From contig NZ_AP024452.1 of NCBI RefSeq assembly GCF_016865485.1, forward strand, positions 2,688,501 through 2,752,500: DNA of 64,000 bases, in the 5' to 3' direction. Shown here in pieces: positions 5,847-63,892 of the stretch. The notes beneath the pieces were generated by a model, which was given only the letters and a program-made list of their open reading frames with translations, was not told the origin of the DNA and did no database searches. The DNA is from Luteitalea sp. TBR-22 (GTDB taxonomy: Bacteria; Acidobacteriota; Vicinamibacteria; Vicinamibacterales; Vicinamibacteraceae). How positions within the stretch are numbered: the first letter of the stretch is position 1; each line of letters begins with the position of its first letter. The position numbers and the translations under genes are program-made.

Positions 5847-6008
5847 GGCGCAGGGGCTCAGGGCTTGACGGCTCAGGGCTCACGGCTCACGGCTCAAAGG
5901 TCAGAAGCTCCGAGTCCCGAGCGCCAAGGCCCAAGACTCAAGGCCCAAGGCCCAAGGCCCAGGGCCCAGGGTCCAGGGTCCAGGGCCCAGGGCCCAGGGC
6001 CCAAGGCC
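5831..6008. repeat. Heptameric repeat array (GGCTCAG then GGCCCAA/GGCCCAG types)
   Basis: Seven-base units run through the gap and into the first codons of the membrane protein gene. They are first of the type GGCTCAG, GGCTCAA, GGCTCAC, then GGCCCAA, GGCCCAG, GGTCCAG. Units vary mainly at the last two or three bases while the GGC core is kept. The register slips in places (for example around 5905-5930). Confidence 0.85.
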
Positions 6009-12758: not shown

Positions 12759-12770
12759 GCGCGTGATGGT

Positions 12771-12890
12771 AATTGGAATTTTGAAATTTGAAATTGTGGG
12801 CGGCCGGCCTCCGGCCGTGCCGCTCGATATACCCGAGGCGAGGGGCCGAAGGCCCTCGCCCGAGAATTTCAAATTTCGAATTTCAAATTG
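12771..12890. repeat. Composite repeat: two 26-nt AT-rich arms around a 68-nt GC core (copy 2)
   Basis: The left arm is 12771-12796 and the right arm 12865-12890, both built as three heptamers plus AATTG. The core shares extended blocks with copy 1 (GGCGGCCGGCCT, TGCCGCTCGA, a CCCGAGG block and a terminal CGAG), in the same orientation. It ends 6 bases before the HDOD gene stop codon and begins inside the udk -10-like element. Confidence 0.85.
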
Positions 12891-12896
12891 CCAGCG

Positions 12897-17133: not shown

Positions 17134-18063
17134 CCGGTGCCACAACGGGCGCGACGAGCTTCGGCTCCTCGCGCCCGACGTGTCTCTGCCCGCATCGCCT
17201 GCTGCCTCGTCGCCGTGCTCGCGGCCAGCGTGACTGCCAGGCCGCGGGCGGAGGAGCCGTTGTCGCTGCGCGAGGTGCTCGCGCGGGCCGGCCGGGCCGC
17301 CGAACGCTTCGGCAGCGAACTGCAGGGCATCGTCGCGCGCGAGCAGTACCTCCAGACCATCCGACCCTGGACGGGCCGCCTGCCGGAACCGGCGGCGGCC
17401 GGGCCGATCCTCGAGTCGCGCCGCCTGGTCGGCTCGCTGCTCCTGGTCCACGATCCCGCCACGCCGTGGCAGTTGCACCGCGACGTGCTGACCGTCGACG
17501 GCCAGCCGGTGGGCGACCGCGACGCCCGCCTGGCCGAGCTGTTTGCCGATCCGGCCGTCGACGCGAGGGATCGGCTGCGACGCATCACCGAGGACAGCGC
17601 CCGTCACAACCTCGGTCACGTCACGCGCACCATCAACGTCCCGACCTTCCCCCTGATCCTCGTCCACCCGAGCCACGCCGACCGCTTCCGCGCCAGCGAC
17701 CGGGGCCAACTTCACGAGGACGGCGCGCGGGTGCGCCTGGTGCGCCTGCGGGAGCGCGGCCGGCCGCGCCTGATCCGCGGCGATCGCATGCGCGACGTCG
17801 CCCTGGAGGCGTTGCTGGCCATCGACGAGGAGACGGGCGAGATCGTCCGGGCCGTCCTCACGCCGCAGGGCGGCGACCTCAAGGCGCATCTCGAGGTCAC
17901 CTTCGGCCGGATCGACGCACTGCCGGTGCGCGTCCCGGTGCGGATGTGGGAGTGGTACTGGGTGCACGACGTCCCGGAGCGCGACCGGTACGTCGAGGGC
18001 GAGGCCACCTACGACGACTTTCGCCGCTACACGACCGACGTGCACGCGCCGGTGGTCAGATAG
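17125..18063 (+). CDS. Secreted protein of unknown function
   Basis: The protein has 312 residues. An Arg-rich N-terminus is followed by a hydrophobic segment (IACCLVAVLAASVTA) and a processing-like site (ARPRAEE) near residue 43, indicating export. The mature part begins LSLREVLARAGRAAERFGSEL and contains VAREQYLQ, a mixed alpha/beta region with repeated Asp/Arg clusters, and an acidic-aromatic C-terminal part (MWEWYWVHDVPERDRYVEGEA). I do not recognise a named domain. The layout resembles Acidobacteriota secreted hypotheticals with a lipoprotein-carrier-like fold, but that is weak. The GTG start lies in an octamer repeat arm with no ribosome-binding site, so the true start could be elsewhere. 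A 14-unit heptamer array begins directly after the stop codon. Confidence 0.65.
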   Translation: MKLPVPQRARRASAPRARRVSARIACCLVAVLAASVTARPRAEEPLSLREVLARAGRAAERFGSELQGIVAREQYLQTIRPWTGRLPEPAAAGPILESRRLVGSLLLVHDPATPWQLHRDVLTVDGQPVGDRDARLAELFADPAVDARDRLRRITEDSARHNLGHVTRTINVPTFPLILVHPSHADRFRASDRGQLHEDGARVRLVRLRERGRPRLIRGDRMRDVALEALLAIDEETGEIVRAVLTPQGGDLKAHLEVTFGRIDALPVRVPVRMWEWYWVHDVPERDRYVEGEATYDDFRRYTTDVHAPVVR

Positions 18064-18161
18064 GCTCCCGACTCCCGACTCCCGCCTCCCGACTCCCGCT
18101 TCCCGATTCCCGACTCCCGACTCCCGACTCCCGATTCCCGACTCCCGATTCCCGACTCCCG
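18064..18161. repeat. Heptamer array, 14 units of NNTCCCG
   Basis: Fourteen uninterrupted seven-base units begin directly after the TAG at 18061-18063. TCCCG is invariant. The first two bases vary in the order GC, AC, AC, CC, AC, CT, AT, AC, AC, AC, AT, AC, AT, AC. The next unit (GGCTCTTC) breaks the pattern. Confidence 0.92.
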
Positions 18162-18275
18162 GCTCTTCCTGTCATATGCCACGCCCTGCCGTTTGACGGG
18201 CCCCGAGCGTCGCGCGAATATCACCGACGCGTTCCCCGGCACGCGCGCACGAGTCCGGGAGGAGGTCAGACGCAG

Positions 18276-18941
18276 ATGTCCGGTCCGCTCGCCATCAACA
18301 CCAACGCTCCCGATTTCACCGCCACCACCACGCACGGTCCCATCCGCTTCCACGAGTGGCTCGGCGACAGCTGGGGCATCCTGTTCTCGCACCCCAAGGA
18401 CTTCACGCCGGTGTGCACGACCGAGCTCGGCACGGTGGCGCGCCTGGTGCCCGAGTTCGAGAAGCGCAACGTCAAGGTGATCGGGCTGAGCGTCGACCCG
18501 GTGGATCGCCACGAGGCGTGGGCGAAGGACATCGAGGAGACGCAAGGTGCGGCGGTGACCTACCCGATGATCGGCGACCCGGACCTCAGCGTGTCGAAGC
18601 TGTATGGCATGCTGCCGGCCGACGCCGGCGAGACGTCCGACGGCCGCACGGCTGCCGACAACGCGACCGTCCGCAACGTGTACGTGATCGGGCCCGACAA
18701 GAAGATCAAGCTGGTGCTCTCGTACCCGATGACGGCCGGCCGCAACTTCGACGAGATCCTCCGCATCGTCGATTCGCTGCAACTCTCGGCACGCCACAAG
18801 GTCGCCACGCCTGCCGACTGGAAGCCTGGCCAGGACGTGATCATCGGCACCGCTGTCTCCGACGAGGAAGCCAAGGGGATCTACCCGAACGGCTGGCATG
18901 CCGTGAAGCCGTACTTGCGCTATGTACCGCAGCCGAAGTAG
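18276..18941 (+). CDS. 1-Cys peroxiredoxin (Prx6 type)
   Basis: The protein has 221 residues, matching the 1-Cys/Prx6 subfamily, which reduces hydrogen peroxide and organic hydroperoxides in the cytoplasm with an external thiol. The peroxidatic Cys47 sits in DFTPVCTTE, with the supporting Thr44 and an Arg in the downstream VRNVYVIGPDKK strand region. The long C-terminal arm (VATPADWKPGQDVI ... YPNGWHAVKPYLRYV) is characteristic of Prx6, and no resolving cysteine is seen. GGAGGAGG about 10 nt upstream fixes the ATG. The GH16 gene starts 2 bases after the stop codon, so they may be cotranscribed, though no functional link is obvious. Confidence 0.93.
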   Translation: MSGPLAINTNAPDFTATTTHGPIRFHEWLGDSWGILFSHPKDFTPVCTTELGTVARLVPEFEKRNVKVIGLSVDPVDRHEAWAKDIEETQGAAVTYPMIGDPDLSVSKLYGMLPADAGETSDGRTAADNATVRNVYVIGPDKKIKLVLSYPMTAGRNFDEILRIVDSLQLSARHKVATPADWKPGQDVIIGTAVSDEEAKGIYPNGWHAVKPYLRYVPQPK

Positions 18942-19765: not shown

Positions 19766-19820
19766 CGCATGCCGGCACTCCCGGCAAGATGGCTGACCGT
19801 CGGCCAAGGCCGACGGCTAC

Positions 19821-19940
19821 GACGCCCGGGTGTCGGCGTCGCCAGTGGCCGACGGCCCCAGACTCCCGGGTGCAGGTGTCGCCCGTGGCCGACGCCCCCG
19901 GACGCCCGGGTGTCGGCGTCGCCCTTGGGCGACGCTCACG
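19821..19940. repeat. Three tandem copies of a 40-bp unit
   Basis: Copies occupy 19821-19860, 19861-19900 and 19901-19940 with an exact 40-base period. All share GAC-CCCGGGTG, then a TGTCGSCGTCGCC-like block, then a GGCCGAC block. The third copy ends in a REP-like palindrome (19916-19935) whose flank runs into the helicase stop codon. No spacers of CRISPR type are present. Confidence 0.85.
19916..19935. repeat. REP-like palindrome R1
   Basis: GCGTCGCCCTTGGGCGACGC is a near-perfect 20-base palindrome followed by CACGAACCGTCAG. The same flank follows copy R6 at 43989-44010. The TCA in this flank is the stop codon (TGA) of the minus-strand helicase. Confidence 0.75.
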
Positions 19941-46214: not shown

Positions 46215-47418
<1,204 letters not shown>

Positions 47419-52445: not shown

Positions 52446-52645
52446 GGCCTTGGTCCTTCGGCCTTCGGCCTTCGCTCTTCCCGGTACCCCGTACCCGGTA
52501 CCCGCTACTCGCTGGCCGGTGCCCGGCGCCGGTGCCCGCCGCCCGCCGCCCGCTGCCCGGTGCCCGGCGCCCGGTGCCCGGTGCCCGCTGCCCGCTGCCC
52601 GGTGCCCGGTGCCCGCTGCCCGGTGCCCGGTGCCCGGTGCCCGGC
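52446..52645. repeat. Long heptamer array ending at a -10 box
   Basis: It starts with GGCCTTC/TTCGGCC units, passes through CCGGTAC and CCGCTAC units (about 52481-52515), then about 18 units of CCGGTGC, CCGCTGC, CCGGCGC and CCGCCGC up to 52645. One six-base unit breaks the phase near 52530. TATAAT follows directly. Confidence 0.9.
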
Positions 52646-52651
52646 TATAAT
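52646..52651 (+). promoter_or_regulatory. Perfect -10 box, leaderless start
   Basis: TATAAT lies 9 bases before ATG 52661, leaving a leader of only about 2-3 bases if transcription starts at the usual distance. The -35 position falls inside the heptamer array. Confidence 0.65.
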
Positions 52652-52660
52652 CACCCGTTC

Positions 52661-53185
52661 ATGCTCCGCCCGTACCGTGGCCAATGGCCCCAGCTCGACG
52701 CGTCGGTCTTCATCGACCAGAGCGCCCAGGTCATCGGCGACGTGACGATCGGGCCGGAGTCGAGCGTCTGGATGAACTGCGTGGTGCGCGGCGACGTCCA
52801 CCACATCCGCATCGGCGCTCAATCCAACGTCCAGGACGGCACCATCGTCCACGTGATGCGGGGCACGCACCCGACGACGATCGGCGACAAGGTGACGATC
52901 GGCCACGGGTGCCTGATTCACGGCTGCACGATCGACGACCGCTGCCTGATCGGCATGGGCGCCATCGTGCTCAACGGTGCGGTCATCGGCGCCGACTCGA
53001 TCGTCGCCGCCGGCACGCTGGTGACCGAGCGGACGGTCGTGCCGCCGCGCTCCCTGGTGATGGGCAGCCCGGGCAAGGTCCGGCGCGAACTGACCGACGC
53101 CGAGGTGGCGTCCATCCTCGACTACGCCGCCCGCTACGTGGGCTACCGGCTCGACTACATGGCCCCAGAGGACTCCCGCGGCTGA
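52661..53185 (+). CDS. Gamma-carbonic anhydrase-like hexapeptide-repeat protein
   Basis: The protein has 174 residues of left-handed beta-helix repeats (QVIGDVTIGPESSVWMN, IRIGAQSNVQDG, TIGDKVTIGHGCLIHG, AVIGADSIVAAGTLV). Three histidines in the zinc positions of the gamma-class are present: His64 in GTIVHV, His82 and His87 in GHGCLIHGC. The short form resembles the YrdA/CaiE-like subfamily, in which true carbonic anhydrase activity is often absent. The C-terminal helices (DAEVASILDYAARYVGYRL) pack on the trimer. The start is preceded by a TATAAT and no ribosome-binding site. hisS begins 13 nt after the stop codon, so the two are probably cotranscribed. Confidence 0.88.
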   Translation: MLRPYRGQWPQLDASVFIDQSAQVIGDVTIGPESSVWMNCVVRGDVHHIRIGAQSNVQDGTIVHVMRGTHPTTIGDKVTIGHGCLIHGCTIDDRCLIGMGAIVLNGAVIGADSIVAAGTLVTERTVVPPRSLVMGSPGKVRRELTDAEVASILDYAARYVGYRLDYMAPEDSRG

Positions 53186-63060: not shown

Positions 63061-63080
63061 GCAGGTCGGCGGCCGTCCGC

Positions 63081-63100
63081 GTTCGGCCTTCGGCCTTCGG
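63081..63100. repeat. Short TTCGGCC heptamer run
   Basis: TTCGGCC, TTCGGCC, TTCGGCA lie about 22 bases after the large-subunit stop codon; the same unit occurs near 47280 and 52455. Confidence 0.65.
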
Positions 63101-63146
63101 CATCAATCCTGGACCGATCCACGGGTCGGTTCAGGATTTCTCGTTT

Positions 63147-63848: not shown

Positions 63849-63892
63849 CGACTGCCTTCCCGACTGCCGACTGCCGACTGCCCACTGCCGTC
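63849..63892. repeat. CGACTGC heptamer array
   Basis: CGACTGC units (with one CTTCC interruption and a CCACTGC variant) lie about 65 bases after the laminin-B-like gene. Confidence 0.8.

Follow-up and report, generated by a model that had tools for sequence, protein, structure and literature searches.

Heptamer arrays in Luteitalea sp. TBR-22: a constant period of seven, species-specific units and family-specific orientation to replication

The array at 18064-18161 and its surroundings

The window, the whole stretch of DNA analysed here, comprises 64,000 nucleotides of the genome of Luteitalea sp. TBR-22 (6,468,984 bp, one contig), and its relevant features are given in Table 1. A tandem array of heptamers directly follows the TAG stop codon of a gene for a protein of unknown function, homologues of which were found in 51 of the 60 relatives searched. 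Next downstream is a gene for a 1-Cys peroxiredoxin-like protein, and the order of these two genes is preserved in two congeners. The array measures 98 bases, that is 14 units of seven; all 14 carry TCCCG at unit positions 3-7, preceded by AC in eight units, AT in three, and GC, CC and CT in one each. The preliminary description presented these as fourteen perfect heptamers that begin at the base after the stop codon. That 14 heptamers of the form NNTCCCG lie behind the stop is confirmed by the sequence itself, by TRF (score 153, period 7, without indels) and by shuffling: all 12 copies of TCCCGNNTCCCGNNTCCCG in the window lie inside this array, and none appeared in 100 dinucleotide-preserving shuffles, so the chance expectation is zero. 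Perfection, however, is a property of the TCCCG core only and not of the whole unit, and the start at the base after the stop is correct for the NNTCCCG phase, whereas the period itself begins at 18065. The array belongs to the GGGA(G/A)TC family, a kind of repeat with the capacity for G-quadruplex formation, and contains 14 intact G-tracts.

Table 1. Features of the window, with positions counted from its first nucleotide
Feature	Position	Strand	Description	Basis
Period-7 array	5924..6008	+	Unit CCAAGGC	TRF, family list
Upstream gene	17215..18063	+	Protein of unknown function	Gene caller, homologue search
Stop codon	18061..18063	+	TAG, directly 5' of heptamer array	Sequence, ORF list
Heptamer array	18064..18161	+	14 units; C-rich form CTCCCGA on +, G-rich form GGGA(G/A)TC on -	Sequence, TRF, shuffles
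Remainder of intergenic gap	18162..18275	.		Sequence
Downstream gene	18276..18941	+	1-Cys peroxiredoxin-like	Gene caller; motif FTPVCTTELG read from sequence
Period-7 array	52448..52644	+	Longest in window, mostly GCCCGGT	TRF, family list
Period-7 array	63860..63890	+	Unit CCGACTG, GGCAGTC family	TRF, family list

An intrinsic terminator at the array was rejected, as no stem-loop with a T run was found between 17900 and 18400; no stem in the array was stronger than in shuffles, and an Rfam search of the window gave no matches, which led us to reject a known RNA family. The rest of the gap holds no terminator consensus, promoter consensus or partner array.

Several other repeats were noted in the window. 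The 197-bp array at 52448-52644 abuts a TATAAT about 10 bp 5' of an ATG and, if a promoter lies here, spans its -35 region (52448-52671). CGGCCTT heptamers at 47259-47368 and 63070-63101 are partly contained in a 39-bp higher-order repeat (47275-47367), and a GC-rich 40-bp tandem repeat of 3.2 copies (19808-19934) separates a glycosyl-hydrolase-like from a helicase-like gene. At 12767-12893, a GC-rich core lies between inverted arms of AATTTGA repeats; the element has shared flanks (GGCAATTTGAAATTTGAAATTTGAAATTC) and recurs elsewhere in the genome (L040:17913, L042:5066, L049:15030, L086:5493 and L125:14184). It is dispersed and AT-rich in a genome of 70% GC, and resembles a REP/MITE or a bidirectional terminator.

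Period-7 arrays across the genome and in congeners

We surveyed 120 evenly spaced 20-kb stretches together with the window (2.46 Mb, 38% of the genome of this species, which is represented by a single strain), counting arrays with a score of at least 16 and calling genes by codon usage (2025 genes, 90.4% coding). This sample contained 197 period-7 arrays, compared with 0 to 14 for each other period (14 and 21 aside). By extrapolation the genome carries some 500 heptamer arrays, mostly intergenic; 22 of the 197 were intragenic. The largest family in the sample was ACTCCCG (48 arrays; CGGGAGT on the other strand), followed by ACCGGGC (24), AGCCCTG (18), AAACGTC (14), ACTGCCG and AAGGCCC (12 each), AATCGGG (9) and others, and some arrays switch unit in register, for example from TGACGTT to GACGCCG. 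Across the whole genome the two-unit core of the GGGA(G/A)TC family gave 165 + 159 matches. Within codirectional gaps, 51 arrays lay no more than 30 bp from the upstream stop, while random placement gave 29 (maximum 38). At three loci (L112:14379, L142:18087 and L061:3132) arrays overlap or touch two convergent gene ends, with both stops in or beside the array.

Two sets of observations bear on how arrays arise. Outside arrays, exact two-copy 7-bp duplications numbered 164 versus 37 expected (8-bp, 49 versus 12; 10-bp, 2 versus 1.8), and since these are in excess and period 7 dominates, we suggest that arrays would be born by duplication of 7 bp. Array edges are sharp, the flanks matching the unit at background level only, and neighbouring units are alike (0.457 at lag 1 versus 0.335 when shuffled; 0.268 versus 0.331 at lag 4). 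After removal of array bases, codirectional gaps measured 109 bp with arrays and 108 bp without, and divergent gaps, which were not equal, 139.5 and 194. Because edges are sharp, adjacent units alike and bases have been added net in codirectional gaps, arrays may be taken to lengthen by local tandem duplication in 7-nt steps. Slippage of the strands during replication is the simplest process for such duplication, and we infer that it is the most likely one. Arrays would then persist outside coding sequence, where most of them are found, because 7-nt steps disrupt reading frames. Local slippage alone cannot carry one unit to more than 100 loci.

Also outside what slippage explains is a polarity relative to ORF edges that holds irrespective of gene direction. 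Within a family it is usually one particular strand that points outward from the closest edge, be it a start or a stop (105 arrays outward, 29 inward; cross-validated accuracy 0.87). In arrays with C/G skew the G-rich strand has its 5' end a median 14 bp from an ORF edge, compared with 92 bp for the 3' end. The window array departs from this polarity: behind the stop, its C-rich strand is the coding strand. Such a pattern could come from a dedicated active process that adds heptamers next to ORFs, always in 7-nt steps and with one fixed polarity, so that the step rather than the sequence is inherited and each species has its own set of units; an example might be a polymerase that slips backwards by 7 nt along its own product. 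We regard such a process as rather unlikely.

Variation within the unit had been described as confined to two positions, and attributed either to selection on the five-base core or to a copying process tolerant of change at those two positions. Genome-wide pooling bore out that variation is not uniform over the seven positions: mismatches per position of ACTCCCG were 8.0, 23.8, 5.6, 1.5, 1.9, 1.5 and 3.4%, counts that are non-independent since they include shared variants. Private single changes, lying between two consensus units of GGGAGTC arrays, numbered 0, 1, 2, 2, 17, 2 and 1 per position; because 16 of the 17 at position 5 are G>A, two standing units, GGGAGTC and GGGAATC, coexist, and the remaining changes are spread evenly. 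What had appeared as two variable positions is thus mostly one two-state G/A position. A single A/G position is also seen in ACCGGGC (position 1, 6/9 changes) and GGCAGTC (position 4, 4/5). With the two-state variant removed, the GGG tract showed about 1.6% mismatches in the pooled counts versus 4.8% elsewhere, which fits a constraint on the G-tract; pooled GGGARTC and ACCGGGC counts both show the G-tract relatively spared, with no sparing in GGCTCAG. The choice between core selection and two tolerant positions was accordingly too strong: private changes are otherwise even, yet the GGG tract is spared in the pool.

Comparison with related species separated the period from the unit. Behind the stop of the same gene pair, one congener (G001; genome 7,480,314 bp) has period-7 repeats with units GTCTCAG and CCCGGTA, and another (G004) has them with CATGCGG and related units. 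We traced 30 array-bearing and 30 array-free gene ends to G001 via concatenated C-termini, and scored those whose C-terminus was reached at 60% identity or more (24 array-bearing, 18 array-free). Period-7 repeats lay within 250 bp of the orthologous end in 11/24 array-bearing cases versus 3/18 controls, a recurrence of array sites that is only suggestive. None of 20 TBR-22/G001 pairs had identical units, and their rotational distance (mean 3.10) was close to that of shuffled pairs (3.25, p 0.20). The unit TGACGTT has 73 matches in TBR-22 and none in eight relatives, and CGGGTAC has 192 in G001 and 3 in TBR-22. As judged from these genomes, unit families are species-specific, and units would turn over between species while the period persists.

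These results bear directly on TCCCG, which the preliminary description treated as a possibly conserved core. A sequence-specific protein might bind it at 18064-18161, where it is identical in every unit. However, the corresponding gaps of the two congeners hold period-7 repeats with other units, and families with a changed core thrive, GGCAGTC among them. Because the period and not the unit recurs, and because many families have other cores (ACCGGGC, GGCTCAG, TGACGTT, GGCAGTC, GGGCCTT), a binding site of this kind is extremely improbable.

Orientation to replication and number of units

The dnaA gene lies at position 340 and a weak GC skew switches sign near 3.2 Mb. Three further DnaA-domain matches (G000:C1:1560425, 4304143 and 5695458), equal in score and in open-frame length (581 aa), probably represent a multicopy insertion-sequence ATPase gene. 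In the sample, 102 of 153 arrays had the G-form strand running against the fork (p 5e-5), and the ratio of against to with was 30:5 for arrays scoring at least 40, 35:6 for near-perfect and 31:18 for the shortest arrays. The complete whole-genome list of GCCCGGT, counted by array, gave 36:2, in the direction predicted beforehand. CTCCCGA gave 29:3 in the first 2.99 Mb (left half) of TBR-22 and 19:8 in G001, and CGGGTAC, counted in the left half of G001, gave 34:4. In some families the replication fork orients nearly all of the longest arrays, and the window array follows this rule. GACGTTT in TBR-22 showed no orientation (16:18), and TGAGACC in G001 gave 25:21, contrary to the orientation predicted beforehand. 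Since the lists of GGG-bearing families are biased and those of GACGTTT and TGAGACC are not, the fork rule is family-specific. Even within the GGGA(G/A)TC family, arrays dominated by GGGAATC tilt the opposite way (2 against, 7 with).

Two simple sources of the bias were rejected. The first is gene orientation: genes lie on the leading strand in 57% of cases, and stop-associated arrays with the G-rich strand outward would then run with the fork, opposite to what is observed. A G-run as sole cause is suggested by the whole-genome lists (three GGG families biased, two non-GGG families not) but is unsupported by the pooled sample, in which families with GGG (74:37) and without it (35:18) showed no overall difference. 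A polar motif of chromosome architecture, KOPS- or AIMS-like and recognised by a translocase or a replication factor, would account for the near-absolute GCCCGGT orientation along both replichores. Such motifs combine conservation with replichore skew; we found skew in three families and no conservation of the motif, units differing among congeners, and several families lack orientation altogether, while the arrays are tandem and tied to ORF edges. We consider this reading very improbable.

A repeat able to fold in single-stranded form tends to be deleted when it lies on the lagging template. In our reading the + strand is the lagging template in the left half, which would make the G-rich strand the leading template. 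Arrays of several GGG-bearing families would accordingly build up where the G-rich strand serves as template for leading-strand synthesis and corresponds to the nascent lagging strand; G-rich folds might favour loss when they form on the lagging template, or gain when they form on the nascent lagging strand.

Tandem runs of 2, 3, 4, 5 and 6 units of GGGA(G/A)TC numbered 25, 9, 24, 5 and 5. Four units are the minimum for an intramolecular quadruplex and the peak matches that minimum; it was absent from the other families examined. The window array has 14 units, not four. Together with the G-tract, the four-unit preference suggests that G4 folding may filter this family. Selection might go further, with four G-tracts folding at ORF edges and affecting RNA ends or expression. 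Restriction of the peak to GGGARTC, the low variability of the G-tract in pooled counts, the 14 intact tracts of the window array and the sharing of unit kind and rules with Xanthomonas and Nostoc would all agree with such a function. Units, and often arrays too, are nevertheless not retained at orthologous gene ends, families without a G-tract share the period and the edge preference, and the G-rich strand of the window array is antisense to the upstream gene; moreover, Rehm et al. detected no regulatory role (PMC4692102). A functional quadruplex is possible but unlikely.

The four-unit runs also raise the question of dispersal by insertion, in which a mobile process would paste a 30-nt cassette, C(GGGARTC)4G, beside ORFs and longer arrays would grow from it. 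Nearly all of the 24 four-unit runs have C before and G after, one unit occupies many loci in one species and is absent from its sister, and the arrays have ORF-edge polarity. The flanking C and G are, however, equally expected from one extra partial unit, no shared flanks were seen past single bases, and other families have no favoured copy number. A Y1 transposase-borne REP (REP/RAYT) was rejected, the unit not being palindromic and Y1_Tnp matches numbering only two, both near the cut-off, which also weighs against insertion. Overall we find dispersal by insertion quite improbable.

On balance we think it probable that the arrays reflect replication-linked duplication of 7 nt, that orientation, and perhaps G4 structure as well, filters the G-rich families, and that the arrays have no gene-specific function. 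The constant period with unit turnover, the excess of two-copy 7-bp duplications and the fork orientation link this class of repeats to replication.

Relation to known heptamer repeats

The array at 18064-18161 is a real array of a known repeat kind in a new lineage. Of 297 genomes sampled from the phylum, 13 carry GGGARTC triplets, and these 13 belong to scattered families; six viral contigs carry such triplets as well. Dispersed short extragenic repeats are also typical of REP/RAYT systems, but the Luteitalea units are non-palindromic and have no clear RAYT partner. The STRR heptamers of filamentous cyanobacteria are likewise 7-bp intergenic tandem units of unknown function (cited in PMC2670836); they belong to a different phylum and hairpin-forming ones have been described, whereas the 18064-18161 array has no stable stem. 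The TAACTGA heptamers of marine Beggiatoaceae resemble those of Luteitalea in mixing related units, in lying at ORF edges and in showing 7-nt indels between relatives, but consist of a single unit found mostly upstream of start codons (PMC4679880); their author prefers a regulatory role or horizontal transfer (PMC4679880).

The closest counterparts are the heptameric G-quadruplex repeats GGGNATC and GGGGA(C/T)T of Xanthomonas and Nostoc (Rehm et al. 2015; PMC4692102), which prefer four units and whose G-rich strand points outward from the closest ORF edge (PMC4692102). Luteitalea shares a 7-nt unit with a G-tract, intergenic location at many loci, the four-unit preference and, genome-wide though not in the window array, the outward G-rich strand; its GGGAATC is the Xanthomonas unit, and the G/A position of GGGA(G/A)TC parallels the two-state C/T position of the Nostoc unit. 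Why heptamers are the favoured long bacterial repeat has been an open question since 2007, and a slippage preference for 7 nt was earlier hypothesised to reflect polymerase contact length (both cited in PMC4692102). Between two Xanthomonas, 83% of repeats stay in place, and a leading/lagging preference is absent, which was reported as an observation and not as a definition (PMC4692102). Luteitalea differs in having many coexisting unit families, in replacing units between congeners, and in the orientation by replication of the GGG-bearing families GCCCGGT and CTCCCGA (and CGGGTAC in G001). Two traits are new relative to the literature cited here: units turn over while the period stays constant, and some families are strongly oriented by replication.
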